This document shows positions 20,521-63,928 of a stretch of DNA of 64,000 nucleotides, in pieces; position 1 is the first letter of the stretch, and every line of letters starts with the position of its first letter. The notes beneath the pieces are model-generated. The model had not been told where the DNA came from, did no database searches, and saw nothing but the letters and a program-made list of their open reading frames with translations. The stretch spans positions 17,817,775 through 17,881,774 of the forward strand of contig OZ005689.1 of the NCBI GenBank assembly GCA_963930775.1, given 5' to 3'. Source of the DNA: Cliona cf. orientalis. Lineage: Eukaryota > Porifera > Demospongiae > Clionaida > Clionaidae. Position numbers and translations under genes: made by a program.

Positions 20521-21480
20521 CTAATCTTCTGGTGGGAACTCAGCCTCAGGCTCATCATTCTCCATGTCTGCCTCGAAAGTGGACTTGTAGTCCAGGGGCG
20601 GATCTAGGGGGGGGTTCAGGGGGTTGCAACCCCCCCAAACGATTTTGAGCAGCCCCTCCCACTTATATACAAGGCCTACTATAGCTTGGCATAGTAGCTG
20701 CCACTGTATGGCTAGCAGCAGACAAGCTGTGTAGTACATAATTGGCCTCAAACCAACAGGGTTGTTCACGGTGGTTAATGGTACATCCTGAACATGGCTT
20801 CAGCTATGAATAATCTACTATAAACCACAAGAGTCAGCTGTGGTGTGTGGTAAAGCTCTATACCTACAGTGTTGTAGTAACTCAGTGCTAGTGGATCACA
20901 GTCACTCCTTGGGGCGCGATTGAGCGGGCATAGGTGATTAAAAGTGGGCGTGGCTCATTAAAAGTGGGCGTGGTCGCAAAAATTTCGCGCGCTTTGCGCG
21001 CATTTATATTTACAACCCCACCATACTGAAATTCCTAGATCCGCCCCTGTAGTCTCGATTATTCCCATCATGGCTGGGGTACCTGGACCCGATCTCCTGG
21101 CGAGTGTAGAGAAAGGTAAGGATTTATGTAGTGTGGATACTGTAGTGTACGTGTACTTACAGTAACAACACATTTGGGCATAATTTCCCTTTTATCATGA
21201 ATGACGGTCCTTCCATCCTTCCTTCGCAGGTACTCCTCATCATTCCACAGCCCAACGTCACTCAATACCTTCTAGAAGAGGTGGTAGAGCCTGAACCTCT
21301 TCTCATCGTTGGCCGGATGAGGACTAGCTGACCCACGGAGGAAGTCGGGAGGTAGCTGGATGACACAAGGAGCACAGAAACAGTGGTGGCAGTGATCCGG
21401 TCCTCGAAGCACTGGGTACCGAGGATTCTCCCGATATCCACGGGGGTGACGAGGGAAATAACCTACATGCAGTTGCAAAT
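20521..21480 (-). pseudogene. Two-exon orphan gene remnant, last exon split by a transposon
   Basis: Exon A (to 21161) reads PDHCHHCFCAPCVIQLPPDF, LRGSASPHPANDEKRFRLYH, LFQKVLSDVGLWNDEEYLRR and DKREIMPKCVVT, and ends at a GTAAGT donor (21155-21160). A 64-nt intron ends in a pyrimidine tract and CGCCAG. Exon B begins at 21096 in the same phase with EIGSRYPSHDGNNRDYKSTF and runs to a TAG at 20521, ending EPEAEFPPED. Exon B is interrupted at 20593-21049 by an element; removing the element and one 5-bp duplication restores the frame exactly. The REIMPKCVVT..R.RYPS.DG pattern and the CHHCFCAPC cluster resemble small zinc-binding orphan proteins of early animals and, loosely, the P2X7 C-terminal domain; that link is weak. 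An upstream coding exon containing ATG-AAGCCTGC near 21500 is possible. Confidence 0.6.
20593..21049. mobile_element. 5-bp-TSD element with CAGGGGCGGATCTAGG ends (family G member 1)
   Basis: Termini CAGGGGCGGATCTAGG and CCTAGATCCGCCCCTG are perfect inverted repeats of 16 bp, flanked by the direct repeat TAGTC at 20588-20592 and 21050-21054. G-rich and C-rich runs lie just inside the ends. Internal DNA includes two GTGGGCGTGG words and the self-complementary GCGCGCTTTGCGCGC. There is no coding capacity. It lies inside a coding exon of the gene at 20521-21480. Confidence 0.9.
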
Positions 21481-21889
21481 TTCAGCATCAGTAGCAGGCT
21501 TCATGGTGAACCTTTAGTAACTTATCCCCTACTTGAGGCATCCACTGTGTCAGGACTATCAGAGGCTGGAGAGATGCTGTGACTCCACCTCAAAGCAACA
21601 GAGGAGTTCGGAGGCTGATTTGCCATAAAAAAGTCTGTGACCATCGCTACAAAGGCTGGAGGAACCTGGACTCCTTGACTCTCTTCTCTCACCTATCAAG
21701 TGTGGAAGACTTTACATGTAGTTTTTATGGTTTTATATTGAGTTACTATTCAATCTTACAGTTATTTCAGTCTGTTCTGTGCCAGAAGCCATTGGCAGTA
21801 AACACGCTAACAGTGGTTCCCAAAAAAAGGTTTCAGTAGTAACCAAGACAAGTTGCCATGTGTTCAAGAGCTCTAACAGAACTTACTGC

Positions 21890-22830
21890 GCGTGTGCATA
21901 GCTATGTAAATTCCGTGACTGAATCTGATTCGGCCATTCACCACTAAGCAAAGAGCAGTGATAATCATATGCTGCTGGTGTTCTCAACTGAAACTGTTCT
22001 TCATTGAACTGTGTAAGGATTAATGATAAATTTACATATAAACACAAGACACAATCTTCATGCAGCTTAATGATTTGCTATATCAAGCATTCAATTAATT
22101 TACAAAAGAAAATCCACAATGTAGGTTAATTACCTCTTAGTCTTTTCTCCCTCCCTGATGGCTATGACCGTGCACAATACGACTCTCATGGCCTTTGTAT
22201 GCATGCACACATATGCATGTACATGCCTATAGCCTCATAAATACCAAGGCCTTTCCAATATATTGTGTGTAATGTTTAAGATGTGAAGGCCTCCATGGGT
22301 ACAATGCTACTTGTACGCATGCAGATATAAGCAAAAAATGTTACCTTAGATCGGATATCCTCTCCAGTGGCCATACATTGTCAGCATTTGTGTAAAGCTC
22401 TACCAACTCCAGATTTATAGCCACCTAAATCATGTGCTGCTAGAGTATCCACTAGCATGACAAGCAGAGTACCATAAAACCTCTTTTCAAGTCCATCAAC
22501 TTTCAACACTAAGCCATCCTAAGTATAATTATTATGACATCACAGTGAATACAATAAAATCAATGTTGTAATTACCTTGGCTAAGATGTTTACATCCTTG
22601 ACAAATGGCTCGAGGATGGTCTCAAAACCATACTTGCCCAAGAGTGGGCAGGATACACATGCTATAAGTTGAATTGCTTTGTGTGATGACCACAATTCAG
22701 GCCTCAGAGTGCCCAAAGAATAGTGAACATACCTGAATACAGACAAGTGTTTCCTGTGACATACAGGATTGCATGTAGTAGAATAAATAAACTTACAAAG
22801 ATTACTATTGTGGCCAGCGACCTTTACCAA
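21890..22830 (-). pseudogene. Spliced remnant of an orphan transposon-type protein (N-terminal half)
   Basis: Three coding blocks lie on the minus strand. The first (22830 to about 22551) reads RYVHYSLGTLRPELWSSHKA, IQLIACVSCPLLGKYGFETI and LEPFVKDVNILAKV. The second (about 22500 to 22345) reads VDGLEKRFYGTLLVMLVDTL, AAHDLGGYKSGVGRALHKC. The third (about 22015 to 21900) reads FNEEQFQLRTPAAYDYHCSL. In proteins I recall from cnidarians, fish and sponges these come in this order (an LEPFV.D block, an ADT.A.H..GG.K block with CxxC, then F..E.F.LR) and are followed by a (L)PQDVMHDLFEGV block, which here is found separately at 33.3-34.1 kb. Function is unassigned; a transposase-like origin is likely. 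The second block has one in-frame stop in the CxxC region. Confidence 0.55.
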
Positions 22831-22949
22831 CTTTTGGACAAAATCGCAGTTTAGGCTGCCTGCTTGGTTCTACTCTACTATGCATCCAGTTCAATTATAT
22901 GGTGGTTTTTGGACAATTCTGTTTCTGCTTAGTGTGTGGTCTGCTTGTT

Positions 22950-23310
22950 ACACACTAGTCTAAGTAGAAAAAAAAAGATTTTAATTACTAGGACTGTGTG
23001 GAACAGTTGGGACCGTAATTTTTATATGGGCATGCAGAATGGACCAAATCATGAACTTTGATGAAAAGACGTTTTTGATTCACACCTTAGAATTAAAGTT
23101 ACGGCTCTTTGAAGTTTGTATAGGAAGCCATTCACTTGCAATGTGTGTCCATAGAAACTATTACGGGTAAGAAAAAATTTTGTGGGCGCACAGGGTATGT
23201 TGACCCTTTACCAAACATCGTGCATATTGCTTTTTTGGTGCTGGCTTGCATTGTATGCATCCAGCTTGACAGTGTGGTGATATTGGACCATTTTTTCTGC
23301 TTAATGTGTG
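22950..23310. mobile_element. MITE with ACACTAAGYAGAAAA ends, copy 1, plus a truncated neighbour
   Basis: Left end ACACACTAGTCTAAGTAGAAA and right end TTTTTTCTGCTTAATGTGTGG are inverted repeats. The body shares TTAAAGTTACGGCTCTTT and CAGAATGGACCAAA with the reverse strand of the copy at 54223-54603. The DNA just to the left (about 22860-22940) ends in TTTCTGCTTAGTGTGTGGTC and is the right end of another, truncated copy, so two copies lie side by side. Confidence 0.75.
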
Positions 23311-24045
23311 GTCCCCTTTGAAAATAAAAAGCTAATTAAGCATGTCAGACACTGTACATTGTGTGTGTTAATGCAGTTTTATTGCTTCCGATTGGGCGTG
23401 GCTTCACAAACCAATGCTTGGATATTGGGGCGCAGGACCGGGCCGCAGCGGTGGTGGGCGTGTCCTCGATGCGGTGTGACCTTTGACCTCCGCCTGGTGG
23501 CTTTGGGGGCATGACAGGAGGTCAATGGTGAGGCCATGTCTGTTAATGAGGCACTGTACGCCAGTGTGATTGACAGGACCGTACGATGGTTTGAAGCGGA
23601 TGTGGTTGCAATGATGTGTTGTTACCCCCCCCCGCCCACACAGAAACTGAGGTGAGCTCTTGTGTGGGTGGTGTGGCAGAACGGCCTTGAAGTGTTTGAC
23701 CTTGAGGAAGCTGTGTTTTAATTGGGATTGTGGGCTTCCGGTGGCGAATTGGCACTTGAATGGTGGTCCTTGAGGCACAGGGTGGCGCTGTTTTGGGCAT
23801 GGCCTGGTCCCTCCCTTCCGGCTCGGCTTCCGGTCCATTGAGAATATTAAATGAACACTTCCAGCTCTAGCAGCCACACCCCTGAGACGTGGGTGATTAA
23901 AAGTGCGTGGTCACACAACATGCACCACACTTATGACTTTGATGTGGTTTAGGGGGCGTATCCCTACATTACGCCCACACAATCAAGGTCGTGCCTTAAA
24001 CTAAATAGGCCTGTATCTCAGATTGATATCCAGCGCAAGAATTGA
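23311..24045. other. GC-richer stretch without a supported gene
   Basis: A 157-codon minus-strand frame (23404-23877) is open but its proline- and histidine-rich product resembles nothing I recognise, and the GC-rich composition alone can keep it open. Treated as non-coding. Confidence 0.4.
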
Positions 24046-24489
24046 AACCCGGCATATGGGATTTTTTTGTGGAAGTTGAATTTTATGTATGGTTGATAAG
24101 CTCTACCATAGAGCTAATCCGCGTTCAAGTTTCAGACCGACTGTGCGCTTCGTTGTGGAGATACAGCGCTTTGTTTGCCATCACGCCACACCCCCAACAA
24201 TCGAGAAATTACAGTCTAAAGGCGTTGCCATGCACGCGTATGGTGTTTCCGCATACTACGCGTGACCCGGAAATCAACAGAAGGGTGCAGTAATGGCTAA
24301 TTTACTAATTAGACTAAATTTGATACATATTTGACTGTCAAATAGTATAATGTACTAATTGATAGCTGTTGAAATATCAATTATCTAAGAAGCAAACATA
24401 GGAACATATCAAGCAGAGAGTATAATTTGTCTAATTTGTATATTTACATTTATGTATTGTATAATATTGTGTCAAACTAGTCAATTATA

Positions 24490-24985
24490 TGTTTAAACGC
24501 CTGGACCCCCCTGCCAAACCCCCTGACAAACCGTAGTTTTGTTTAAATGCCTCGACCCCCCTGCCAAACGTAATTTGTTTAAACGCCACTACCCGGTACC
24601 CCCTGATAAACCGTAGTTTTGTTTAAATGCCTCGACCCCCCTGCCAAACGTAATTTGTTTAAATGCCTCGCCCCCCTCCTAAACGTAATTTATTTAAACA
24701 CCACTACCCCCTGACAAACCGTAGTTTTATTTAAATGCCTCGACTCCCTTGCCAAACGTAATTTGTTTAAACGTCACTACCCGGTACCCCCTGACAAACC
24801 ATAGTTTTGATTAAATGCCTCAACCCCCCCTGCCAAACGTAATTTGTTTAAGCGCCACTACCCGGTACCCCCTGACAAACCGTAGTTTTGCTTAAATGCC
24901 TCGACCCCCCTGCCAAACGTAATTTGTTTAAACACCACTACCCCCTGACAAAAATGCCTCGACCCCCTACTGAATGTATAAAGTT
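24490..24985 (+). repeat. Minisatellite of alternating GTTTAAA-centred units
   Basis: Units alternate between GTTTAAACGCCACTACCCGG with CCCCCTGACAAACCGTAG, and TTTAAATGCCTCGACCCCCC with TGCCAAACGTAATTTG, giving a compound period of about 110-120 bp with variable deletions. It lies inside the hAT-like element. Confidence 0.8.
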
Positions 24986-25028
24986 GTATTTAAAGCCTCA
25001 ACCACCTTGCCAAATGTAATTTATATAA

Positions 25029-25500
25029 TTGTAATGCATTTTTACATTCCAAATTATACTGTATATTGTCAAATTGCTATATATTTTATGTATCAAGTTA
25101 TGTCAAGTTTATCTAATTATACAAAATATACAAATTAGACAAATTTGACACCCTCTATACGCTATAATTGAGTTATGCATATGTATTATTGTATATGTAT
25201 ACATACTATAATGCAATTTGACATTCCAAATTATACTGTATATTGTCAAATTGCTATATATTTTATGTATCAAATCAGAGTCAAACTTACTATATTATAC
25301 AAAATATACAAATTAGACAAATTTGACACCCTTTACACAGCTATACCTAGTTAAGTTAATTACAGTATATATAGTATAATGCAATTTGACATTCCAAATT
25401 ATACTGTATATTATCAAATTGCTATATACTTTATGTATCAAATCAGTATCAAACTTATTATATTATACAAAATATGCAAATTAGACAAATTTGACATCCT
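25029..25500 (+). repeat. Three AT-rich tandem copies of about 170-180 bp
   Basis: Copies start at ATGCATTTTTACATTCC (25029), ATGCAATTTGACATTCC (25211) and the same at 25380, each continuing AAATTATACTGTATATT, TTTATGTATCAA and ATACAAATTAGACAAATTTG. Spacing is 182 and 169 bp. All lie inside the hAT-like element. Confidence 0.85.
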
Positions 25501-26206
25501 ATTACTCATGATTATTTTGACAATCCAATGGTATAGTTTGTCAAATTATTATCTAATTAATGTATAAAATTAGTGTCAAACTTATCTAATGGTAACTGTA
25601 CTATAGCTACCATAAAATTGACAAAATATACTGGCAAAATCAAACTTTATCTTAATTTGACAAATCAAATGAGTGTAAAATACGTATAATATCATTGATA
25701 ATATACAGAAGTTATACACATGTCAAGTCAAATACCATTTATAAGGTAAAATTAGCCAAACTGCACCAGTCTCGAAATCAATTAAAAAGGCCTGGGCGGA
25801 GCCGTTCGAAATGAACTTGAAGATCGAGAGAGAGTCGCATTTCATTGTTGACGACAGCCGATTGTTCTTAGATGGCCAAGAAGCTAAAAAGGTGAGCGAA
25901 CGTACAGTAGTTCGATGAATCTAGCTGTATCTAGGTAGAGAATTCTAATTAGCGCCCATAGCAACTGGCTCCGTGTACAGTAGCTGTACAGACTAGGTAG
26001 GTCAAAATGAAGCCTTATTTCGCCTTTGTAACTTACGGTTAGCCTCCGTAGACGACGGCAAAGGTTAGTAGAAAGGTTCTTTGGCATGTATATGACAAAA
26101 ACTCAAACTTTGACATTTTTTGACTTGAGATACTAAAAATGCGCATTGCGCAAATAGCGTGCGGATCCCATATGCCGGGTTTTGTCAGATACGGTCACAT
26201 ATGATA

Positions 26207-26985: not shown

Positions 26986-28262
26986 TTACAGTACAGTGTT
27001 TGAAGTGGTGGGGATGTGAGTTGGTGATGAGATTGATGAAGATGGTGCAATTTTCATCATCTTACTGGAATGTGTTTCTTCTTCAGCATTGGTAGCTTCA
27101 TTGAGAATGTCCAATATCTGCTTTTGCTCGTCTCCAATTCTTTTGTATGTTCGTACACCTTCCACACTTCTGTGTCCAGTTCGTGACATAATTAGCTGCT
27201 CTTCCACCCCTTTCTGAAATAGCTGTGTTGCAGTTGTGAGTCTTAGTGAATGGTTGGTCTTGTAGCCTGTTATTCCAACAGCTTTGCAGATTCGGCTAAC
27301 TGTACTGTTGAGTGTATTGTGCCCAATTGGTGTCTTGCCGTACCACACATTGCCCTTTGGCTTTTTTAGTAGTGTCAAGTAGAACGCATCATTCTTGGCT
27401 TCTGATGGTCGATGCGACATATAAGCTTGGTACAAACGTACTAAACATCGTTTCGGGTTGGCATGATGAACTACGTGTTTTGGTTTCACTTTACGATGAG
27501 CAAGTCCACCGGCATTATTTTTTGAATAATTCTTGGTGTACTCTAGTTGCAGGACACCACTTGGAGAGGATGTGAGAGTAAACTGGGAAACCTGCAGACT
27601 CCGATGTTCTCCGCTTCGTAGGGCAAAATTGAGACCACATAAAAAGAGCATACTATCCACCAATGATTGAGGTGAGTGATCTCCAAGAACTCCTTTTTCC
27701 CATAGTTGGTTTTCTTCGTCAACTGTTATTGCTTCACAGATACTCCTAGACAGGTTGAACGTAGGCGTTTCATTTCTCCATCAAGAACCTTGCGATACCA
27801 GCAAACGAAGGTGAATCGAAGAGATTTACTTCTGGACGATAGACTTGAATCTACCTTTGTAGACCACAGCAGATAGCATAGAGAGTTTTAGGAGGATAGC
27901 AGTCTCCATTGCATTTCCGAGTCTCTAGAACAAACTTGCTCAGCCAGTAGTCAAGTTGTTGGCTGTCCACAAGATACAGATGAATAGGCCATTCACTGTA
28001 AGCACCAGGATGCAAAGATCGTCTGTGCTAGCTCCATTCTTTCCATATGTTAACACACCACAAGGTACTCTTGGCAGTATTCTTGGAGATAGCAGCAACC
28101 TTAGCTTCTTCTAACCGAGCATCGCTTATTAAAGCAAAACAAGAGCCATCGGTAGAACTAGGTTCAGTAGCGATAGTGACTGGCTCGACGGGCTGCAACA
28201 ATGAAGGGAGGGGCTGCTGCGAAGCATGTGCAGAAAGAAGCTAACCAAGTTCAAAGGTCATG
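26986..28262 (-). pseudogene. Crypton-type tyrosine recombinase (DUF3504 family)
   Basis: The intact 225-residue C-terminal frame (26986-27663) reads LCGLNFALRSGEHRSLQVSQ, TGYKTNHSLRLTTATQLFQK, SRTGHRSVEGVRTYKRIGD. This supplies the recombinase tetrad: Arg in LRSGEHR, His-x-x-Arg in NHSLR, His in TGHRS and Tyr in RTYKR, which cut and rejoin DNA through a phosphotyrosine. Upstream, in shifted frames, the minus strand reads ICEAITVDEENQLWEKGVLG, YPPKTLYAICCGLQ, YRPEVNLFDSPSF and earlier EEAKVAAISKNTAKSTLW, CVNIWKEW, the core-binding domain. Such DUF3504 proteins include Cryptons and host genes derived from them (ZMYM, QRICH1). At least two stops and one frameshift lie in the N-terminal half, so the gene is inactive as one unit. 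The tail is serine- and threonine-rich. Confidence 0.85.
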
Positions 28263-28488: not shown

Positions 28489-28771
28489 CAGTGGCGGATC
28501 CAGGGGGGTAAGGGGGGTGCAAGTGTACCCCCCTTTGGGTTGCATCTAACACTAAGAAGTACTGATAATAAACTAAATGGAACCCCCCTTTCTGGTTATA
28601 GAACTAAGGAAACTGCTGCTATGGCTCACCTTTAGAATGCTTTAGAAGAAATTCGTTCGAAAACAGACTGGTAGGGCTGGTAGTTTGTCTCAAAAACGAT
28701 CAAAATGGGCGTGGTTTTGAGCGCAAGACTGTACTACAACCCCCCTTCTAGAAATCCTGGATCCACCACTG
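28489..28771. mobile_element. 5-bp-TSD element with CAGTGGCGGATCCAGG ends (family G member 2)
   Basis: Termini CAGTGGCGGATCCAGG and CCTGGATCCACCACTG are inverted repeats with one mismatch, flanked by the direct repeat GTTAC (28484-28488, 28772-28776). GGGGGGTAAGGGGGG and AACCCCCCTT lie inside the ends. Length is 283 bp and it is non-coding. Confidence 0.9.
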
Positions 28772-30315
28772 GTTACATCACTAGGTATCAGTCTCTACGT
28801 AATACACAGCCTCGAGCCTTAAGTGTGTAAATCGCATAGAGACCTCTACCTCGTGATGTAACCTACTATACTTATCTCCCTTTCAAATTCCAGATCCTCT
28901 CCCCATACCTACCTTTAGAGCGAGGACCGAAGCTAATCTTTCACAAAGGAAGCTTGTAGATGATGATAGGAAATCCATGGTTCGTGTTTTGGGTACGGTC
29001 CTTTGTACCTATGTCCAACGGCCAACAACGAAGAACTGTAGGACTGTTAACAACTGCATCTCTTGTACGCAAGTATGCCTTTCTCAAAGGAGTAAGTGAA
29101 AAATTTAATAATATATCAACACTTGTTATGGTTTTGTGCCAAATATGCAGGACTCTTGGACACAATTTCTCTATACCCGCTGCCAAAACATAAACAGAGA
29201 TTCAGGGGTCCTGATTCTGCTACAGCACCAAAAACGGTAAAGATAAGATCAACTAAGAGACACACTTATGCCAGTGTTTTGATGCCAGAAGATGATGAGG
29301 AAGCCAACAGAAGGAATGTGGCCAGTTAAAGCAGGAGGTCCTCAAGGGAACCACACGACTGGAAGCTAGAAAAAAAAAGCCTTGTATGCAGGACTTCCCA
29401 CTTAGATGAAGGCATACCTTGGAGGACTAACCCCGTGTAGAAATGCTGATTGAAAATTTTCCTCATCTCAAAAAGACCAGTCTTGTAAGCTTTGTTGTTT
29501 GTAACGAGCATTTTTGTGGTCATGATCACATCCACATTAAATTTAATGAGTTCATGCTTGCATGCATGCAGCTACTATTAGGGGCAGCTTAAGGGTGGCT
29601 ACTATTCAGGGTGCAGCTTCTATTAAAATTTAATGAACATGGTATCTTAATAGTATCACACAGTTTGATTTAGTGATGAAAGCGACTGATTCTCTGGACA
29701 ACTCCACTGGGAGCAGTACAAAAATGCCATTATAAGCTACTGCAAAGCTGGTAAGACCAAATCAGCATATCTCCAACGGGTTCTTGATTCTACGGATGAA
29801 GATGACCCTGGTAAGATACTTATCAGTGCATAATGTAACTGCTTAATATACTTTGTGTGTCAGTCTCTTGCTACAGATTCCTTTACACTTGGTGCATTCA
29901 AATGTATTTCATACTATTTGGTGCCAAAGCAAAGAGAGAAGGCGGAAAAGGAAGCTTCGCCATATTGTGTTATACCAAACTTACTGATGGACCTCCAGTA
30001 CGTATGTTAGCTCATCTCAGTCTACAGTAAGACCACCGGATGTCCATATACGTACAATATATTTTAGTGTCAATGCACGGTTTGCATGGCGCCTATGGGG
30101 GTTAAAATGATATGCATGCTAGCTTTAGGATGTAGATGGGGTGATGAGAGTGTGTGTGCCCATCCTTGTTAAGCTAAGAACTTTCATGTAATTACTATTG
30201 TTGGGGCTCTGTGCTTTGGTGATTTAATTATCCCGGCAGACTCCGTGAACGTAGTTTGGGTATAGGGTTGACTTTCGCCCTTAAAGCTGGAAGGGGGGAG
30301 TTCGGGTGCCTAAGG

Positions 30316-30387
30316 GTGGTCGTAGCTCAGTGGTAGAGCGCTGGTGGCTCAAGCCAGTGGCCCTGGGTTCGATTCCCGGTGGCTGCC
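30316..30387 (+). tRNA. tRNA-like gene, copy 1
   Basis: A 72-nt cloverleaf can be drawn: 7-bp acceptor GTGGTCG/TGGCTGC with several G-U pairs, TA at 8-9, D arm GCTC-AGTGGTA-GAGC, anticodon stem CTGGT/GCCAG around loop GGCTCAA, variable loop TGGCC, and T arm CTGGG-TTCGATT-CCCGG. The Pol III A box (TAGCTCAGTGG) and B box (GGTTCGATTCC) are perfect, and T6 lies at 30392-30397. The loop puts CTC at 34-36 (Glu codon GAG), but position 33 is G rather than the near-invariant U and the acceptor is weak. It may be a tRNA pseudogene, a tRNA-headed SINE or another Pol III RNA. CCA is not encoded, as expected in eukaryotes. Confidence 0.6.
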
Positions 30388-30603
30388 CGGATTTTTTCTC
30401 TTCCAGCTAGCTTTAGGATGTAGATGGGGTGATGAGAGTGTGTGTGCCCATCCTTGTTAAGCTAAGAACTTTCATGTAATTACTATTGTTGGGGCTCTGT
30501 GCTTTGGTGATTTAATTATCCCGGCAGACTCCGTGAACATAGTTTGGGTATAGGGTTGACTTTCGCCCTTAAAGCTGGAAGGGGGGAGTTCGGGTGCCTA
30601 AGG

Positions 30604-30675
30604 GTGGTCGTAGCTCAGTGGTAGAGCGCTGGTGGCTCAAGCCAGTGGCCCTGGGTTCGATTCCCGGTGGCTGCC
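30604..30675 (+). tRNA. tRNA-like gene, copy 2
   Basis: Identical by eye to the copy 288 bp upstream, with the same A box, B box, GGCTCAA anticodon loop and T-run terminator. Confidence 0.6.
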
Positions 30676-30891
30676 CGGATTTTTTCTCTTCCAGCTAGCT
30701 TTAGGATGTAGATGGGGTGATGAGAGTGTGTGTGCCCATCCTTGTTAAGCTAAGAACTTTCATGTAATTACTATTGTTGGGGCTCTGTGCTTTGGTGATT
30801 TAATTATCCCGGCAGACTCCGTGAACGTAGTTTGGGTATAGGGTTGACTTTCGCCCTTAAAGCTGGAAGGGGGGAGTTCGGGTGCCTAAGG

Positions 30892-30963
30892 GTGGTCGTA
30901 GCTCAGTGGTAGAGCGCTGGTGGCTCAAGCCAGTGGCCCTGGGTTCGATTCCCGGTGGCTGCC
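30892..30963 (+). tRNA. tRNA-like gene, copy 3
   Basis: Identical by eye to the other two copies. The partial fourth unit downstream ends before its tRNA-like part, so there is no fourth gene. Confidence 0.6.
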
Positions 30964-31270
30964 CGGATTTTTTCTCTTCCAGCTAGCTTTAGGATGTAGA
31001 TGGGGTGATGAGAGTGTGTGTGCCCATCCTTGTTAAGCTAAGAACTTTCATGCTATGCATATGGGGTCAAAAGTAGAGTATGTGTATGTACAACTGTATC
31101 TTCTAGTGTGAGATACTATCTTAAGTACTATTAAAAAGAGGAAGAGCTGAGCTTCATGTTGATACCAAGAACAAGTTGAAGCGTGCCGAGATGACCGATG
31201 TAGAGTTGACAAAGATTTCGGCTGCATATGAGTAACTATCAAACCAGTGCTAGGGCACTTAGTCCACAAG

Positions 31271-31461
31271 TACCGTAAATCGTGAATATTTTACGTCTAA
31301 AATATTTCATGCAATAAATTTTCATGTTAAATAATTTTTGGATAAACGACCCTGTACCGCATTATCGTTAATATTGCACATGTATTTTCATGCGTTTAAT
31401 TTTTGCACAAGCCAGGCTGTCCGAAAATATTTTAACAACAAAATATTCACGATTTACGGTA
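31271..31461. mobile_element. MITE with TACCGTAAATCGTGAATATT ends
   Basis: TACCGTAAATCGTGAATATT on the left and AATATTCACGATTTACGGTA on the right are perfect inverted repeats. TA at both borders suggests TA target duplication (Tc1/mariner-like). 191 bp, AT-rich and non-coding. Confidence 0.9.
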
Positions 31462-32505
31462 GGTAAGTACCAGAGCAGTTATTCTGCTGAATCCCGAGTC
31501 TTCCAGGACTACTCCGCCACCATGAGCGCACTTTGAAGATCTTTAGTCTGTTCTATTTTCTTAGTAGTAGTTAGCTAGATTGTCAACCGAAGAAAATACT
31601 AAACTTTAGCTATTAAACTAGCTAGGTTATAGCTACCAACTCTTCGTCTTGAGTACTTTCTTTGTGATACTTCAACTTGCTCGTCCATTTTTTTTATCTT
31701 TTCTGGGGGCAAATCGGTAACTCTCATTCCAGAACGAAAAACGAGGCATCGTCGATGTCTACACCATAGTAGCAGCGTGGAACAGAACCGCTTGAGGCGC
31801 TTCGAGAAACGAGCCTTCGAAAACGAGAAAAAATTCATTCTGTCCTGGGTAGGGCGCAGTACACGGATAGATATGCGGATGTATACGAGATTATTGCGTA
31901 TACCCGCGTACGTATTACGCAGGCGTACGTAATCATACGCAGCAAACATCACTTCCATTTTGCCATTAAACCTCACGTGAGGTCTTAGTGTAGACTGATC
32001 TTGAATCTTTCTCCTCTCTCAACTGCATGTGGTCATAGTAGTGAATCTCAGCTCCCCATCTATGGACCCGGCCTGTTATGATCTTGGGTGTATATAAAAC
32101 AGTTATACCAAAAATGCATCATATACCTTAAGGTATGTGAAACCGGAATAATTTCTATACAATATATATTTCAGAAGGGACACCACCTACAGAGGTCACT
32201 GACAAGTCAAACTACTGCCCCCATATTCTTCGATTAGTCAGCCCTCCGGGAGATGATTTGCAGTGCTCTTACTTCATTTCAGTTGAGCAGAGGATTCCAG
32301 TGGAATGCAGATCTGTTTCCGAAGCTCTCTTTTGCCTTTTAGCTGCACGCACACTACGTGTTTCATAATCATACAACCAAAATGTAAAGGATATCCTTTT
32401 TTCCTTCAGGAAAAGATTGCTGGATTCTCTAATCCTGGATTCTAGAAAACAGCAACTTATTCGAATATCTGTGCTGTGATAGAATGCTATCTGGACGATA
32501 GTGCT

Positions 32506-32844
32506 CACGGGCGTAGCCAGGATTTTAGGTAAGGGGGTGCTGGAGTACGCGCGCGAAAAATTTAAGCCACGCCCACTTATTAACCGTCAAAGTTCAAATT
32601 GTAAAAGAGAACGCGTTCTGAATGTAGCTAGCGAGCTAGCTCAAGGTTTTCGGCCGAATCTTGGGATGAGATAAGTTTCTAACTATCTTCTAAGCTGTTT
32701 TTTTTTGTAGTAGATGATAGTTTGGAGTAGCCAAGGGGGTGCTGGATGAGGCTGTTCTATGGACTATGTGAACTAGGCATGACTAGGCCAAGAGCAGAGG
32801 GGGGTGCTCGAGCCCCCTGAGCACCCCCCCTGCCTACGCCACTG
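32506..32844. mobile_element. 5-bp-TSD element with CAcgGGCGTAGCCAGG ends (family G member 3)
   Basis: Left CACGGGCGTAGCCAGG pairs with right CCTGCCTACGCCACTG; flanks carry the direct repeat GTGCT (32501-32505, 32845-32849). Inside the ends are AAGGGGGTGCTGG and GAGCACCCCCCC. 339 bp, non-coding. Confidence 0.9.
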
Positions 32845-32988: not shown

Positions 32989-33156
32989 CAGGGTTTATTT
33001 CAGGGGGCCAGGGGGTGCTTTCGCCGCCCCCCCCTTGGAAATTGGCCTTACCTATGTTGCTCGGGTTGCTCGGGTTGCTCGGGTTGCTCGACCTTGAAGT
33101 TCACCACTATGCATTAATTTTGGTCCCTCTTCAGTGAAATCCTGAAATGCACCCTG
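32989..33156. mobile_element. 5-bp-TSD element with CAGGGTTTATTTCAGG ends (family G member 4)
   Basis: Left CAGGGTTTATTTCAGG and right CCTGAAATGCACCCTG are inverted repeats with one or two mismatches; flanks carry GTAGC (32984-32988, 33157-33161). It holds four copies of a 9-bp repeat, TTGCTCGGG, near 33058. 168 bp, non-coding. Confidence 0.9.
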
Positions 33157-41660: not shown

Positions 41661-44600
41661 TCTACCCTTCAAGCATAAAGCCTTCCTGGGGGTTTCACTG
41701 CAGTTCCGGTCTGCGATCTAGTTACAATCCTTCACGTCTCAGTTTCTATCTAAGGTTCAGTGTTCTCACTTGGCTGTGATGGAGCAACATTAAGATGTAT
41801 GCAATTTCTCCTTACAGTGCCAGAGGGGGTCTCTACCAAGTACGATCTTGGTGAGTTATAGATGAAACAACAGTACCTTCCGCCTGTCCACCTTCAGAAG
41901 TTACCCAAACAGAATTACAGGGGATTGCATCGGATTCTTTAGCTCGATTTGATTTGTCAAAATCCCGCTTCTGTCTGGCCTTAAACTTCTGATTTAGCTT
42001 TCTAAATTCCTCCAAGAACGACCAAGTCGGCTGGCAATTGAGCAACACGCGTTCGAAGTTGCCTCCCCATCAACAACTCGGCAGGACTACGTTTACACCA
42101 CGGTAGAGGGGTAGCAAGGTAGTTCAGTAGTATGGATCTTTAGACTGCTTCAACATCTTTGTGGTTTTCACAGTCCTCTCAACTTACCCGTTGCTTTGCG
42201 GGTACCTCGGACTACTAGTGGTGTGTTGGAATCCATATGCTTCCGCGAATGTCGAAAATTCTTGGGATACTGTGGACCATTGTCACTGCGTAAAATCTCT
42301 AGAATCCCATATCAGGCGAATGTTGACTTGAGAGAAGTAATCACAGCGGCGGATGTTGTGGATGCTAGTTTTGCTATCTCGGGGTATCTGGAGAAATAGT
42401 CCACTACAAGAAGGAAATGTTCTCCCGCTAGCTCAAACAGTTCTGAGACAACCATCTGCCATGGATAGTCAGGTAAGGGAGTAGAGTAGTTAGTAGTGGT
42501 TCTTTCTTTAGCACATTCTCCTTAGCACAGGAGGTACAATTGCGAATTTTCTCCTCAATGCTTCGACTGACACCTGGCCACCAGACTGCTGAGTTGATTA
42601 CAGTGCAACTGTGTTCAATCCCCTGATGTCCTTCGTGAATCTTCTCCAGGGTCTCGTCCTGAAGACTGTACGGGACTACAATGCGACTGTGATACAACAG
42701 CAGTCCGTTGTGGAGACTCAAGCTGTTTCTGACCTTCCAGTAGGGTAGCAGCTCTGCTTCTATCAGATGCTTCTTGGGCCACCCTGAGTTACAGAATTCC
42801 TTGACTCTGGAGTAGATGATTGAGCTAAGTTTCCAGTCCGCTTTTGCTCACTGGTAGATTTTCAGAAACACTTTCAATAAATGCCTCCACTTCCTCCTAT
42901 AACTCAAGTGTCTCTTCAACTCTTGCCTGAGGAGCACGGGAGAGTGCATCAGCCATGTACAGGAGTTTGCCGGGGACGTGTTGGATGCTGTGGTCGTATC
43001 TTGCTAGCCGGAGTCGAAATCAGAGTACACAGGGTGGCAGACGGTCTAGTTGCTTGGCGCTAAGTAATGGTACAAAGGTACAAGTGGTTTTTGATCCGTC
43101 TATCTGGAATGAACGGCCTAGGAGATAATCGGAAAACTTGTCGCAAGCCCAGGTCACAGCCAAGGCTTCTTTTTCTAGTTGGGTGCATTTCCTTTCTGCT
43201 TCACTCGTGGCTCTTGAAGCATATGCCACAGGCCTCCAGGTATCATCCACTCGCTGTAGAAGAACGGCGCCAAGTCCGTAGGATGACGCGTCCGCGGATA
43301 CTTTGGTGGGAACCATCGGGTTGTATGTTAGCACAGTGGGTTTCGTTAGCTCAGCTTTTACTTGTGAAAATGCTTCCTCTTGACTCAGTCCCCACATCCA
43401 GCTTCGTTTTGTGCTCAAAAGCTCTCTTAGTGGTTAGGTGAGTTCGGACACGTGGGGGGGGGGGATTTACCAAGGTGATTGACCATCTCCAGGAGTCAAC
43501 GTAACTCGGAGATGTTGTGGGGTGCTTTCATGTGGAGTATCGCGGAGACATTTTCTGGATCGGCTCGGATGCCCTCACGGTCAATTACGTGTCCTAGAAA
43601 CTTCACTCGGCTCTTAGTAAACTCACATTTCTCGGAGTTGAATGTTACACCAGCGGCTTCGATCCGTTTCATGGTGGCAATCAATCTCTCATCGTGTTGT
43701 GGTTTGTCACAACCGAAAATTAACATATCATCCATTTGGCATAACACTCCCTCCAGCCCTTCCAATATCTGATTTATTCTCTGCTGGAACAGCTCGGGTG
43801 CGCTGGAGACACCAAAAGGAAGCTTGTAGAAGTAATACCTCCCAAAGGGAGTTAGGAAGGCAGAGAGGGGTCGGAATTCTGGCGCTAGCGGCATCTGCCA
43901 GAATCCACTGTTGACGTCAAGTTTGCTGAATGTAGTAGCTCCAGAGAGTTGAGCCAAGGTTTCGTCGACCTTTGGAATCGGATGGACTTCACACAGAACA
44001 TTCTGGTTTTAAATTCACGCAGATTCTGACTGTGCCTGATCGTTTCAGAACCAACACCATGCCTGCACACCATGGTGTAAGATCACTGATTTTGGAGATG
44101 ACTCCCATCGCTTCCATTCAATGGAGTTCTTCCTTAACTTTGCTCTTCAGTGGTATTGCTACAGATCTGGGAGTGTAAATAGAATGCGGCACGGCTCCCT
44201 CCTTCAGCTTGATCTGATAGGGCTCTCCCAGCATTCCCTGACCAGAAAACACATTGGGAAACATCCTTCGAATATTGTCTCCTGTGCGGATGCTGTAGAC
44301 TCTCTGGATGAGTTGTAGGGAAACAATTGCGAGGAGACTGAGAAGGTTGTTTTTCAAACCTCGTACAACGAAGACAGACTGTGCAGAGGAGTGGTCTCCA
44401 TGTCGTAGAGTGGTTATAAACTGCCCTAGTACGTCTAGGGTGTGTCGTGCCAGGCCACAGAGGACTTTCATTGCCGTCAGTAGTCTTACACCACCCAGTT
44501 ATCGAAAGCTTTGCTCCGAGATGGCAGTGACCTCAGCCCCCGTGTCTAGCTTAAAGCGGACTTCTTTCCCTCGACGAGAAGTGTGGTGGTCCAGGGTGAC

Positions 44601-46377: not shown

Positions 46378-46457
<80 letters not shown>

Positions 46458-57639: not shown

Positions 57640-58580
57640 TGAATGTGATGCATTGCCAGCCTTTGATAGTGAAACCACCTCCAATCAAATTAAATTGACT
57701 CATAGTTATTGTAAAATGAACAAGCGCAAACGAGAAGCTGTGATAAGGTTTAGACGACACAATAAAGATGCTGAGCCTAGTAACTGGTACAGAGCCAAAC
57801 TAATGCTCTACTACCATGGTATAATGAATAAAATGACTTGCTAGGTGGCTATTCAACATACATAGGCTCCAACTTTTCCTAAACAGCTCCAGACATAGAC
57901 CACACCCACTGGATACGCCCATCATTAATTAAAACTCCACCCACACCACACCCAATATGATTGAATTTGATGACCACAATGCCCAGAATATACTTTCTAG
58001 AGCATGAATTTGCAAGCCTACTAGACCTCTTGTAGGTAGTGTTGGTACTGCAAAAACCAAAGTTTGTAAGGCACTACCACAAGCAGCTTGTTCATTTTAC
58101 CACCAGTAGATGACTATTTGTACTACTCCTACAGTGATTGTGCTAGTGTTTGGACCTCTTTCGGGACCAATAATACAATTGTAATAGAGACTTCCGGGAC
58201 ACGGGACAGTTGCTGAAAATCTGGGACTGTCCCGGAGATTCAGGGACAGTTGGAGCCTATGAACATATGAAGTGCATTATAGACATGTACATTTCACTGT
58301 GGTAGCAAATGATAACAAGTATAGCCAAGCAGATGTTGATGATGTAGACATTAAGATGGTCCACCTGAGCATTTATGGAGTTACATTGCACCCTCTACAG
58401 AAGAAAGCAGATCACAGTCACTAGCAGAAGGTAGTGAGTCACTGACTGAGGTATCTCAGGAAGACTTGAGAGACAATGCTAATCTTATGACATCAACCAC
58501 AACAGCTAGTTTACATCTGCAGCTTGAAAGTGCTACCAACAGGCAAGAGATCCCCCTGACCAATATTATAGGCAACTATT
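57640..58580 (+). pseudogene. Pre-helicase linker of the Helitron protein, split by a MITE
   Basis: Before the insert the frame reads LPAFDSETTSNQIKLTHSYC, KMNKRKREAVIRFRRHNKDA and EPSNWYRAKLMLYYHG; after the MITE it resumes VHFTVVANDNKYSQADVDDVDI. The KR+..VIR..R......P...YR..LML(Y/F)Y sequence is the usual segment between Rep and helicase in Helitron proteins. Skipping the MITE and one 6-bp duplication gives LGGYSTYEVHYRHVHF without interruption, as expected in intact relatives. Confidence 0.75.
57861..58261. mobile_element. 401-bp MITE inserted in the Helitron helicase gene
   Basis: Ends CATAGGCTCCAACTTTTCC and GGGACAGTTGGAGCCTATG are inverted repeats. The direct repeat AACATA lies at 57855-57860 and 58262-58267. 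The interior has GGGACTGTCCCGG and two GGGACAGTTG words near the right end. No coding capacity. Confidence 0.92.
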
Positions 58581-58599
58581 TAGAGAGCTAAATGCCAAG

Positions 58600-59373
58600 C
58601 AGCAAGAAAAAGTCACGTTTCATCGCAATTGGTGTTAAAAAAAAGCCATTATAGCTTTTAAAGAAGGCAAACCAGTTGATCCTTATCATGTGTTCCTCAG
58701 TGGTCCAGGTGGTGTTGGCAAATCCCATGTCATTAAATTGTTCTACTCTGACACACTCAAGTTCCTAAGGCTATCAGGTGCTATAGAGCCAGATGATGTA
58801 ATTGTGTTACTAACTGCCCCCACTGGTGTAGCAGCATTCAATATCAATGGTATCACCTTGCATTCTGCATTATTGTTAGGTAGCGGCAAGTACACTGGCC
58901 TTCAACCCCTTATCCATGAACGACTCAACACTTTGAGAACCAAACTATCTAAGCTAACATTAGTTATCATTGATGAAGTGAGCATGGTTGGGTCTAATAT
59001 GTTGCTTGAAATCCACAAACGGTTACAGCAAATCAAAGGTGTGTCTGATGATGTAACCTTTGGTGGTGTAAGCATACTAGCAGTGGGAGACTTGTATCAG
59101 TTGCCACTAGTTGCACAAACCCCATTATTCACCACAGTAGGTGACTGTTATGCCCAGTTGTATCATTTAGGCTCTCTATGGGTAGGTGAATTCCAACTGG
59201 TTGAACTAGATGAAATCATTAGGCAAAGAGGTGACAATACTTTTGCTGAGCTGTTGTGTAGAGTGAGAACTGATTGCACACCTGAGGACCCTGATATTCT
59301 CAAATCTAGGGTAATAACAGCTGATAGTCCATATTATCCCACCCATGTTTTTGTATGTGTACAGATTGAATGA
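58600..59373 (+). pseudogene. PIF1-type helicase N-terminal part of the Helitron protein
   Basis: Reads FKEGKPVDPYHVFLSGPGGV then GKSHVIKLFYSD: the Walker A (GPGGVGKSH). Then VIVLLTAPTGVAAFNINGIT (motif Ia), LTLVIIDEVSMVGSNMLLEI (Walker B, DEVSM), GGVSILAVGDLYQLPLV (motif III, GD..QL.PV) and LDEIIRQRGDNTFAELLCRV (motif IV-like RQ). This is a superfamily 1B 5'-3' DNA helicase. The open frame starts before the ATG at 58690; the region upstream to 58600 continues the same protein (RELNAKQQEKVTFH in an alternative frame). A frame change near 59350 separates it from the downstream part. Confidence 0.88.
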
Positions 59374-59953
59374 ATATGCTAATGACAGAAATAGACTGAT
59401 GTTGAACAGCTTGGCCCCACAATGTGAACAGTATACCATTAAGGCTAGTAATGCTATAGCTGGGCAAGCCCACACGCATTGATCTTCAAAGTCTGAGAAT
59501 AGAAATGAAACGGGTGGTCTTCATGGTACCCTTAAGCCAGCTATTGGAGCTCATGTTATGCTTGTAGTTAACACTGATGTGTCAGATGGCCTTGTCAATG
59601 GAGTGAGAGAAGTTGTCCATATTATCACTAATGATGACAACATGGTATCCAATGTGCTTGTGAAATTTGATAATCAACAGGTTGGCATAAAAGCAATCCA
59701 AACAAGCCCATACCAAGCTAAGTTTTCCAATGCAGTACCTTTGGGTAAACATGAAGTGGTGTTTCGTGCAGAACGCAAATGTGGCTCTGAAATCACACGA
59801 CTACAGTTCCCACTAACACTAGCTTGGGCAACCACTGTACATACAGTACAGGGTCTCACACTTGCTGAAATAGTTGTAGACATGAAAGGTGGCAGATTCA
59901 ATGTCGGGCAAGCCTATGTAGCATTCAGTCAAGTGAAACACTGCAAGGACTGA
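59374..59953 (+). pseudogene. PIF1-type helicase C-terminal part of the Helitron protein
   Basis: The stretch 59374-59480 reads LNEYANDRNRLMLNSL in another frame, then from 59530 GTLKPAIGAHVMLVVNTDVS, DGLVNGVREVVHII, and LAWATTVHTVQGLTLAEIVV, DMKGGRFNVGQAYVAFSQVK. GAHVMLV.N.D..DGLVNG is motif V-like, TVH..QG.T is motif V, and GQ.YVA.SQV+ is motif VI, lacking only the final arginine finger context (SQVKHCKD). The 59558-59953 frame is fully open. Confidence 0.85.
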
Positions 59954-60039
59954 ATATTTTAAAATTTAATGCCTCTAATTAAAAAGAGCAATGATGTGCA
60001 CAATCAAATGGTGAGATTAAATGCAAAGTTGTTGTAATC

Positions 60040-60640
60040 TGTGCCGTGCCAACCACATTACAATCGCATCACTGAATGCAAGATCAATTACTGCAAAACT
60101 GCCTGACATAGCTAATGATGGTGGTTTTAAACATGCTAGTGTACTATTGTTTTGTGAAAATGGCTAACTCCATCACAGCCTTCTGTATGCAGAGTAACAA
60201 AGGTGGAGTTATGATTAGCATTCTTAAAGATTTGCAACTAACTAACACACATACATATGCATCCAATGGCATTGAAGCACCGAGTACTACCCTATTAGCA
60301 AATAATACACACATCCAGATAGCACTATTGTACAGATCACCTAGTGTACCATTGTAAACAATGATCACCACACTCTCCACAATCTTAAACTAGGTATCCA
60401 TGCATAGGTTACCATATGTTATTCTAGGAGACTTCAATGAAGACAATTTACAGCAACTTAATGATAGAATTATAACCTTTATGTCCAACCATGGCTATAC
60501 AAGCTAATAACATTACCAACTATAGCTAATTGATCATGTATACGACAATGGCTCACCTGGCAACGCAACAGTACAAGTCCAAGACACATACTACAGTGAC
60601 CATGACACAGTTTATTATTCTGTCCTGTTAACAGTTAAAT
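60040..60640 (+). pseudogene. Endonuclease domain of the Helitron remnant
   Basis: Starts ITIASLNARSITAKLPDIAN then ASVLLFCE, an EEP-nuclease N-terminus with the catalytic-type Glu retained. The frame at 60115-60357 includes KGGVMISILKDLQ and IQIALLYRSPSVPL. Downstream, in another frame, come PYVILGDFNEDNLQQLNDRI, LIDHVYDNG and QVQDTYYSDHDTVYYSVLL. GDFNE, LIDH and SDHD are the usual catalytic landmarks. Broken by several stops. Confidence 0.75.
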
Positions 60641-60799
60641 AACTTGCAAGCGTCAAGTACTCAAATGCTCACCCCACACATAAAAGCATAGCACTCACAA
60701 GAAAACCAATGCTAGCTAAATTCTAGAACTCTTGAAGAACCTCACTCACATCACAACAGCATATATAGCCTACAAGTATGTTAATGAACATGCATATAT

Positions 60800-61477
60800 C
60801 AGGCCCGTAGCCAGACTTTTTTAAAGGGGGTGCACATGTGCAGGGTTTCATACAGAATTTTTTGTTAGGGGGGGAACTATATGTCGGTACCCGCTGCCCC
60901 CCCCCCCCCCCCCCCTCAGAAAAAGAATTGCATCTTAGGCCTATTTTGATCAAAAATTGGTACTGATAGATTGTGGCTGACAAATACATACCCACTAAGT
61001 AAGTGTGAAAATAGTGCATATAGATTAACTTTCCCAAATAGAGCACGGACTCGATACTAGACATTTTCAAACAGTCAAACCAACGAATCACTCTTTAACC
61101 TTAATTTAAATCTTGGTATTTGTTTATTTAGTATTGTACATTATACTAAACTTTCTCAATTCTTTAGGGGGGGGGAAATCCCAGGGCACCCCCCTCTAAA
61201 TGAAACACTGATGTGTATGAGTTTAATTATTACTATAATGTACTCGCAACAAGGGTTGGAATATTTCTTGCTGTTGTACTATACAATTTCAATGTACACA
61301 ACTGCTTATTGATTGAGGTGTGATGATAATTAGCTGCACTAAGTGGTTTTGTCAGCTGATAGAGAGGATAGCATGCAGCCTCAGTCTATTGCTCATGCAA
61401 TTAAGAACCATGAACTGACATGCAATTATTAGGCTGAAAAAGGGGGGTGCACATGCACCCCCCTGCCTACGGGCCTG
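60800..61477. mobile_element. Element with CAGGCCCGTAGCCAG ends (family G member 5), host of a nested one
   Basis: Left CAGGCCCGTAGCCAG and right CTGCCTACGGGCCTG are inverted repeats with one mismatch; GGGGGTGCACATGTG and CACATGCACCCCCC continue them. A target duplication is not perfect (TATAT versus ATAAT). Another member is nested at 60841-61210, so the original element was about 300 bp. Confidence 0.85.
60841..61210. mobile_element. 5-bp-TSD element with CAGGGTTTCATACAG ends, nested (family G member 6)
   Basis: Left CAGGGTTTCATACAGAA and right CTCTAAATGAAACACTG are inverted repeats with a few differences. The flanks carry ATGTG (60836-60840, 61211-61215). Poly-C at about 60897-60914 and poly-G near 61166. 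370 bp. Confidence 0.88.
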
Positions 61478-61835
61478 ATAATATTATATTGTGTATATGC
61501 TATAATAATACAATATCATGCGTGCATTATGCAGACTAACTACAGCACTTCTTACAGTGAAGTCTCTGAGACACAAACAACCAGTGTACCACACATTCCT
61601 AATTGATATTTGAAACTGAAAATATTCATATCACATCTTGAGGGGTAGACAATCGAACCATGTCCATCAGAAACACTTCATTATTACCTGAAGTCAGCAA
61701 CCAAGTTTGATTCTAAATATAAATCTGCAGGACTAATTGGAAATCATATACACAGCTTTTAAACAATCACTAACAACTCCATTCACATAATCAATGACAC
61801 ATGATATGTCTCACATATTTATTAACTATTTCTGT
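61478..61835. other. Non-coding; no feature seen
   Basis: AT-rich interval between two elements; only short frames. Confidence 0.4.
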
Positions 61836-63240
61836 ATCCATTATCAAACAATAATATTACTATTTGTCACAATCATTAGTATGACAAGTGTAAAAACAAT
61901 TGAATAAAACTGAAGGATGAAGTAGGGATGGCGTGCAATGCCAAAAAGTACACAAACAAGATTTTTAGGGATAAGAGATAATTACAACCACTACACATCC
62001 CTACGCTTGCTTTTATTGATCATAATTACAGACCAACTTATTCAAGACATACTAACCTTGGAGTGTTCTTGACTTGCATGTGGGAGAAATTCATGTTCTC
62101 CCTGTCAGTAATTTTATATTATTATTGATTCATGCTATATACGCAAAAAGCAAGCGTAGGGATGTATAGTGGTTGTGATTATCTCTTATCCCTAAAAATC
62201 TTGTTTGTGTACTTTTTGGCATTGCGCGCCATCCCTACTTCATCCTTCAATTTTATTCAATTGTTTTTACACTTGTTTCTGTTCTTTTTTATTGCATGAG
62301 TGCAACTATAATAATTATTGTTATACAGTAAGTATAGATGGGAGGTGCCGAAGTTCGCGCGTGCGCGTAAAAGTAGTAGCCACGCCCCTCGTTAACTCGC
62401 CTAGGCGATAAAGCTGTTTCAGGCAGCCAAGTAGCGATGAGACTCTAGTACCAGTGTAGCTATTATTGATTTATCGACTCTAGTATGGCCTCGAGTCTCC
62501 ATAACCCGGCCCAGTACTCTGAGCGCTGCACGCGCTAGCCTCTAGCTAGGTTTGCTTTATCGCGCTCGCGCTCGCACTGGCCTAGCTCGTGCGGGAGAGC
62601 CTGGCGCTTAGCTATGGCTAGGCTAAGCTAGCTTGGTTCGAGGCGCTAGTTAGCTGGCTTGCTAGCAAGTTGCTAGCGGCGGTAGCGCGCGCCGCTGACT
62701 ACAGTCACGATTTCACCATGGCAACGCATTATGAGCATGCGCATTATATGACAAAAATGGCATATCAGACACACCCTGTCTTTAATGCACCGTACATGCG
62801 CACCCACCATTATGTGACTGTAGAGATAACGCAAAACTAGCGTGCCACTGCACTGCGCGCTACAAAATAGAGTGGATTTATATGAGAACTAAGGTGAGAG
62901 ATCCAGAGAGTCTTGAGCTAGCCCTGGAAATGACAAAGAAAGATTGACAAATGGCTATTTTTTTTTAACATCTGGTTCTGGCATATACAATTGAGTTGAT
63001 GGATGATCTTGGTCTTGTTAGATAGATAATTTGCTGTAGATTCTGATTTTGACACTTAGAAATTTCACAAAGTTACCTGTTTTGAGATATTTGGATTTTT
63101 GTAATGGATTACATATATGGAGTATCCGTGCCATCCCTACTTATAGAGTCTACTGACTCTATGATGATTGTGACAAATAGTAATACATCATCATCATACT
63201 AATGATTGTGACAAATAGTAATATTATTGTTGATAATGGA
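61836..63240 (-). mobile_element. Composite inverted-repeat element, family E, copy 2
   Basis: Outer arms CCATTATCAAACAATAATAT, TACTATTTGTCACAATCATTAG (61838-61884) and their complement at 63190-63238; inner long inverted repeat with arms at about 61905-62010 and 62150-62262, each carrying GTAGGGATG and CTTGTTTGTGTACTTTTTGG. It also holds the GCCGAAGTTCGCGCG block (62350), the GCATATCAGACACACCC block (62760) and the GGATTACATATATGG block (63102) that copy 1 has in rotated order. A 300-bp GC-rich part (62400-62700) is full of GCTAGC words. Non-coding. Confidence 0.75.
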
Positions 63241-63402
63241 TGTTATGCATGTAACTTGAGTCACAGGGTACTACTACTTCCAAATTATCATGCCTCACTT
63301 CAACCAGGGAAGATAATGTATAGTCCCTGCTTCAACATACTTTCCTTTATACTAATTTGCACCAAGATGTAAACAAATTTACAATCCAAAATTAACACTC
63401 AT

Positions 63403-63928
63403 CACGGGCGTAGGAAGCATGGGTGCACCCATGAAATTTCTGAGTGAAACACACACAAAGTCACACTTTGCTCTGAATATTTATGTTATCGGTTTAGCAA
63501 GGGCGGAGAACAGGTAACAACAGGTCTCAGACCCTTGACTGTGTACTGTGACAACAGTTAGGCTGTGGGCATATTAGGGGGGTCTGGGGGCATGCTCCCC
63601 CAGAAAATCTTGGAGATTTCAACTCTCTGAGAGCGTTTCTGATCTATTCTGGCAGCAGTTTTTGGACTGATTTAATAGCAATTTTACTTGAAAACTCTTT
63701 TGCAAACATCTACAATTATGACAGAATTATGTTGCTGTACTTTTGTAGTATAGGGCATGTGATAAAATTGGGGGGGGGGGGGGGGGGGGGGCTCAGCTCC
63801 CTTTTACTTTCAAAGTGGGGGAGGGGGACTGAAGCCCCCCTGCCCCCCCCCCCCATTTCTCCGCCCCTGTTTAGTATACACATAGGCATCAGAGCACCCG
63901 TTTACCAAGTCATCTTCCTACGTCTATG
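63403..63928. mobile_element. 5-bp-TSD element with CACGGGCGTAGGAAG ends (family G member 7), host of a nested one
   Basis: Left CACGGGCGTAGGAAG and right CTTCCTACGTCTATG are inverted repeats with three differences. The direct repeat CTCAT flanks it (63398-63402, 63929-63933). Member 8 is nested inside; without it the element is about 150 bp. Confidence 0.88.
63498..63869. mobile_element. 5-bp-TSD element with CAAGGGCGGAGAA ends, nested (family G member 8)
   Basis: Left CAAGGGCGGAGAA and right TTCTCCGCCCCTG are inverted repeats with one mismatch. The direct repeat TTTAG lies at 63493-63497 and 63870-63874. Long poly-G (63770-63790) and poly-C (63841-63854) tracts lie toward the right end. 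Confidence 0.9.

Follow-up and report, generated by a model that had tools for sequence, protein, structure and literature searches.

We describe here eight short elements in a 64,000-nucleotide stretch of the genome of the sponge Cliona cf. orientalis (contig OZ005689.1; C1:17817775-17881774 of a 216.8 Mb genome), which is called the window below and in which each element is referred to by its first position. The eight are most probably nonautonomous miniature inverted-repeat transposable elements (MITEs) of the hAT type, which would be mobilised in trans by at least three lineages of hAT transposases that stagger their target cuts by 5 bp and read a terminal inverted repeat (TIR) together with a subterminal motif; we put the probability of this reading at roughly 93%. 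It draws on direct observation of the termini, of 5-bp target site duplications (TSDs), of empty sites, of hAT proteins encoded between similar termini and of the layout of the motif.

Five-base duplications in the window and across the genome

The window was scanned blind, with no coordinates given, for CA...TG pairs with ends at least 12/16 alike and 80-2500 bp apart. The scan gave 2448 pairs, of which 2163 lie within a satellite at 1-6400 and 285 outside it. Exact duplications of 2 bp flank 19 of the 285 non-satellite pairs, of 3 bp five, of 4 bp one and of 5 bp seven; exact duplications of 6-10 bp are absent among them. The seven 5-bp cases are exactly the seven perfect duplications listed in a preliminary description made from the window sequence alone, whose eight end pairs are likewise all correct. 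Simulated windows of the same dinucleotide content (20 in number) yielded 206-271 pairs apiece; the number of five-bp duplications per window was 0-2, eight in total. When the right flank was displaced by 6-59 bases, five-bp duplications averaged 0.57 with a maximum of 3.

Two of the elements are inserted in others, and their empty sites were read from alignments of fetched copies. None of the 11 copies fetched for the 60800 family has the 60841 insert; ten have a single ATGTG and one (L047) has ATGTC. The 63498 insert is absent from all nine fetched copies of the 63403 family, each with a single TTTAG. The preliminary description had named a different duplication length at such sites as a possible refutation; at both nested inserts the length is 5 bp. 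Taken together, the scan counts and the empty sites indicate that the duplication is 5 bp long and does not arise by chance from longer or shorter duplications.

Each MITE query has at least 40 to at least 69 relatives among the matches listed, with at least 40 genomic places for the 20593 family; the best 31-40 candidates were scored per family query. Among 80 fetched family copies, an exact 5-bp TSD was found in 65 (64 by script and one by eye), a 6-bp TSD in three and none in 12. In the 32506 family 18 of 20 copies have a 5-bp and two a 6-bp TSD, the window's own copy (L001) being left out. Exact 5-bp TSDs flank 6/6 copies of the 28489 family, 7/8 each of the 60841 and 63498 families, 6/9 of the 63403 family, 5/8 of the 20593 family (plus one of 6 bp) and 5/10 of the 32989 family. 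For the 60800 family the script found 10/11, and the eleventh copy also has 5 bp after a one-base shift of its left boundary by eye. Thus the statement that 60800-61477 lacks a perfect duplication holds for the copy in the window and not for its family.

The 32989 element stands apart. Its outer flanks are common to 9/10 fetched copies, and its GTAGC duplication therefore represents one old insertion that was copied along with its surroundings. Only L158 is a clearly independent insertion of this family, with a TSD of 5 bp. The family has mostly spread inside a larger repeat and is discounted as a member. Overall, the window elements are short, multi-copy, TIR-ended, flanked by TSDs and without a transposase gene, as is characteristic of MITEs, so that the earlier view of partly nested, non-coding MITEs with 5-bp duplications was borne out.

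hAT genes between similar ends

A search of the genome for the hAT dimerisation domain (Dimer_Tnp_hAT, Pfam: PF05699) gave 148 matches, none of them inside the window, which agrees with the earlier remark that the transposase is not encoded there. Paired ends were sought around 42 of the 148 loci. When the TSD aided the choice of ends, 19 loci had a TSD of 5 bp, eight of 6 bp, one of 7 bp (E17), seven of 8 bp and seven had none. When the ends were chosen by TIR likeness alone, the numbers were 17, 6, 2, 3 and 14; for C4_4.20, one of the 7-bp loci in this TIR-only choice, the end pair differs from the one that gives 5 bp. For one further locus outside the 42 (E23) the right end was found and the left end was not.

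Many autonomous loci have a single open frame of about 730-800 amino acids (aa). Intact-looking elements with both ends and an exact 5-bp TSD are E35 (2850 bp, 769 aa, TSD CCCAT), C1_32.06 (3110 bp, 789 aa, TSD TAGCC), C10_8.77 (782 aa), C7_9.28 and C1_29.45 (741 aa). In a Pfam scan Dimer_Tnp_hAT was over the cut-off in 6/6 proteins and DUF4371 in 5/6. The one protein modelled, that of C1_32.06 (L083), gave a structure with a predicted local distance difference test (pLDDT) score of 76, and all 12 Foldseek matches of this model at E < 0.001 are Hermes chains, with template modelling (TM) scores of 0.37-0.41 by query length. Short TIRs with CA...TG ends, a hAT feature, are present in the source elements. 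The classical hAT duplication of 8 bp is found in clade C of the transposases, whereas clades A, B and D have 5 bp.

The likeness between MITE and autonomous ends was scored over the terminal 16 bp. The ends of the 20593 MITE match those of autonomous C1_27.64 in 15/16 positions, the 28489 MITE matches C1_27.59 in 16/16 at its end, and one end of the 60841 MITE matches C7_9.28 in 15/16. C1_32.06 and the 32506 MITE are 96% identical over 50 bp at one end and 87% over 38 bp at the other, and 23 bp of the 63403 MITE are identical to the end of C1_18.01. The closest autonomous end reaches 13/16 for 60800 and 63498 and just 12/16 for 32989. Longer elements with a transposase, for which the preliminary description had suggested a search, exist elsewhere in the genome: similar or identical ends and 5-bp TSDs flank hAT genes. 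The assumption that hAT makes 8-bp duplications, and that 5 bp is hence not hAT, fails on the same evidence and on the published hAT5 group.

The coordinates and ends of the eight elements are given in Table 1.

Table 1. MITEs in the window. The strand is the direction of the motif-rich end.
Element	Position	Strand	TIR	TSD	Remarks
hAT MITE	20593..21049	+	CAGGGGCGGATCTAGG	TAGTC	motif-rich end left
hAT MITE	28489..28771	+	CAGTGGCGGATCCAGG	GTTAC	motif-rich end left
hAT MITE	32506..32844	-	CACGGGCGTAGCCAGG / CAGTGGCGTAGGCAGG	GTGCT	motif-rich end right
hAT-like MITE	32989..33156	+	CAGGGTTTATTTCAGG	GTAGC	nested in larger repeat
outer MITE	60800..61477	-	CAGGCCCGTAGCCAG / CAGGCCCGTAGGCAG	imperfect (flanks TATAT/ATAAT)	split by 60841-61210
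inner MITE	60841..61210	-	CAGGGTTTCATACAGA / CAGTGTTTCATTTAGA	ATGTG	
outer MITE	63403..63928	+	CACGGGCGTAGGAAGC / CATAGACGTAGGAAGA	CTCAT	split by 63498-63869
inner MITE	63498..63869	-	CAAGGGCGGAGAACAG / CAGGGGCGGAGAAATG	TTTAG	

Subterminal motifs and transposase lineages

In 33 autonomous elements the two ends are built differently. At the motif-rich end the 16-bp TIR is followed by a motif of about 9 bp at position 17, again at 26 and in inverted orientation at about 37-38. At the other end the TIR is followed by about 11 AT-rich bases and one motif at 28, and the inverted copy is restricted to the first end. Three clade D elements were reversed by eye in this comparison, as in these the motif-rich end lies 3' of the gene. 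Among elements the motif varies (for example GGTCAGGCC, GGGGGTGCT, GGTAGGGCC, GGTTTCC) yet is alike at both ends of each. Across 38 elements, none of 20,000 permutations reached the observed within-element match; five elements with another layout (C1_26.91, C13_3.99, C1_18.84, C9_5.03 and C18_5.27) are part of this set and not of the 33-element analyses. The layout is clear in 6/8 window MITEs. The G runs noted earlier after the termini are real, and GGGGGGTGC is the subterminal motif, but the motif is element-specific and not always a G run.

Many motifs being G runs, the copies could instead have arisen incidentally, through duplication of the ends or from sequence that is G-rich and of low complexity, and not be binding sites. 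Permuting inside clades only does give a weaker signal, with 99 of 20,000 permutations reaching the observed match; clades A (135 of 20,000), B (55) and C (51) are individually above permutation; neither D nor F is significant by itself. We nevertheless consider this explanation unlikely. The copies stand in a fixed register in 33 elements, and with registers read off this same 33-element comparison, the fixed-register match was reached in 0 of 20,000 permutations for 33 and 26 elements and also for the 13 that are left without G-run elements. The confinement of the inverted copy to one end is a further point against it.

A comparison of the zinc finger with the motif over 24 elements, two elements without a finger being dropped, gave a partial Mantel r of 0.16 (permutation p 0.025), a co-variation too weak for use. 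The pattern CAGGGTTTNATTCAGG occurs at 10 places, none of which was used further. A literature search, with subscription journals and Repbase Reports outside it, found no paper on concerted subterminal hAT motifs, and the asymmetric, concerted layout of these hAT ends is apparently new.

The ends of clade A (CAGNGGCGKAKCYAGG) match 20593, 28489 and 32506 in 15-16 of 16 positions, those of clade B (CAGGGCCGNAGGAAGC and alike) match 63403 in 14/16 and those of clade D (CAGGGTTTCATCCAG) match one end of 60841 in 15/16. In a transposase tree of 39 rows, from which three proteins shorter than 400 aa were left out, the 5-bp elements are those of the three clades A, B and D, together with C1_17.80. 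The 8-bp elements of clade C stand beside B, which is nested among them, and the 6-bp elements lie outside; the TSD length changes state at least seven times on this tree. Joining A, B and D in one clade was rejected (p 5e-12), so that the 5-bp duplication is no mark of a single lineage, and at least three transposase lineages produce it. Neither A and B together (p 0.0745) nor the 8-bp elements of clade C together (p 0.151) were rejected, and independent 5-bp origins in A and B are thus not established. Ends with CAGTGGCGTAGC have a 5-bp TSD in C1_32.06 and an 8-bp TSD in E28; one terminal motif thus goes with different duplication lengths and does not determine them.

The preliminary description had suggested one shared machinery for these families, which do have the CA...TG ends, the 5-bp duplications and the subterminal layout in common. 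A single transposase is, however, very improbable and is rejected here, given two unlike terminal motifs, each with a transposase lineage of its own, the lineage count and the failure of A, B and D to form one clade. That the elements are Transib-like (RAG1-type), which the preliminary description had named as fitting the 5-bp length, with a reservation about the ends, and for which 5-bp duplications and CA...TG ends speak, is hardly credible and is rejected, since the termini begin with CAGGGGCG or CAGGGTTT and not with the Transib motif CACWRTG and since the proteins found between similar or identical ends are hAT proteins, the only kind sought in the genome.

For the hAT MITEs we propose that transposases of this superfamily would cut the target with a stagger of 5 bp, occasionally 6, and would mobilise the MITEs in trans. 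Their catalytic region would recognise the TIR of about 16 bp, while the N-terminal zinc finger probably recognises the element-specific motif of about 9 bp. Three motif copies at one end against one at the opposite end may allow asymmetric loading of a multimer, as in Hermes. Lineage A would serve 20593, 28489 and 32506, lineage B 63403 and lineage D 60841. For 32989, 60800 and 63498 a source lineage would be a guess from their sequence.

Several points weigh against this proposal. No mobilisation was observed, and most links between a MITE and an autonomous element rely on 16 bp and a short adjoining piece of subterminal sequence; 32989, 60800 and 63498 reach only 11-13 of 16 with any autonomous end. 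An exact TSD is lacking at 14/42 loci with TIR-only ends and at 7/42 with TSD-aided ends. The motif match is not above permutation in clades D (14,214 of 20,000) and F (15,006 of 20,000), and the layout is not decisive in two of the eight window MITEs (63403 and 63498).

A broader reading, to which we give slightly less than an even chance, is that hAT ends carry a two-part address and that TSD length is a labile property of the transposase, separate from this address. The terminal repeat would track the catalytic region, and the 9-bp word, in fixed register with two direct and one inverted copy at one end and one copy at the other, would change jointly, at each of its four sites, with the divergence of lineages. 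The TSD length (5, 6 or 8 bp) would have switched repeatedly with the layout undisturbed, possibly from 8 to 5 bp inside one clade.

Known hAT systems and neighbouring features

The names hAT5 and hAT6 date from 2007 (Kapitonov and Jurka, Repbase Reports; as cited in PMC12730594 and PMC9004415), hAT7 is described there from fungi, and families with 5-, 6- and 7-bp TSDs are counted as hAT in PMC12730594. The sponge elements resemble hAT5 as described there, by description and not by sequence, in that a hAT transposase goes with 5-bp duplications; this combination is found at 19/42 autonomous loci, or 17/42 with ends chosen blind to the TSD. The window elements are therefore of a known kind, hAT with 5-bp TSDs, and form a new set of members. 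As the 5-bp elements here are not one clade, a hAT5 defined by TSD length alone would not be a natural group. The eight loci with 6-bp TSDs and the single 7-bp locus (E17) recall hAT6 and hAT7 as described in the same two papers, and the 7 bp of E17, which stands beside relatives with 8 bp and is just one copy with a broken frame, may be an exception. Beyond PMC12730594, our search, with the scope given above, found no paper on several TSD lengths among the hAT lineages of one genome.

In the part of PMC10368747 on the Hermes ends, the left end has three repeats bound by the BED domain, including a palindrome, the right-end repeats are unbound, and the asymmetry is required for activity. The sponge elements share with Hermes the fold, seen in the one protein modelled, and a difference between the two ends, with three repeats at one. 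In contrast, Hermes makes 8-bp duplications and has AAG(T/C) repeats scattered at both ends, whereas the sponge elements have a 3+1 layout in fixed register and element-specific motifs. By analogy, a Hermes-like asymmetric logic would be the likeliest reading of these ends.

An autonomous hAT element, C1_17.80 (C1:17803977-17806468), lies 11.3 kb before the window and has 708 aa, a 5-bp TSD TTCTA and ends CAGGGAAGTCAC; its closest relatives have 6-bp duplications. The region C1 ~16-37.5 Mb, a tenth of the genome with the window inside, holds 90 of the 148 hAT-domain matches and, by hand count, 25 of the best 40 matches of the 32506 family and about 4/40 each for 60841 and 20593. It looks like a half chromosome rich in transposable elements and perhaps low in recombination. 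Within the 63498 MITE, window positions 63569-63640 have about 60 bp (88%) in common with the 3' region of the 8-bp element E28, and also with C14_4.43, C2_6.69 and E17. The GGGGGGTCTGGGGGCATG module of this MITE and of the 3' subterminal parts of clade C is common to elements of differing TSD length.

Elsewhere in the window, a 102-bp satellite occupies 1-6375 with 63 copies (90% match). Its unit is a multiple of 3 with one frame free of stops, which gives minus-strand open reading frames of up to 381 aa; the one scanned had no Pfam match. The feature at 30018-31997 has CAGTCTACAGTAAGAC ends 15/16 alike and a 4-bp duplication ATCT, is perhaps another type of transposon and contains a 288-bp tandem repeat (30118-31052). 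Mobile-element pieces are found at 26989-27663, 43499-43957, 58690-59370 and 11587-12036 (DUF3504/tyrosine recombinase, reverse transcriptase, PIF1-like helicase and DUF6570).

These results correct two shortcuts, that a 5-bp duplication means not hAT and that these ends mean one superfamily. With hAT lineages of 5-, 6- and 8-bp TSDs and near-identical ends in one genome, matched pairs are available for the determinants of TSD length. A sequence handle on how hAT transposases distinguish their own two ends, which the structures of Hermes had raised as a question, is provided by the concerted word in the subterminal regions.

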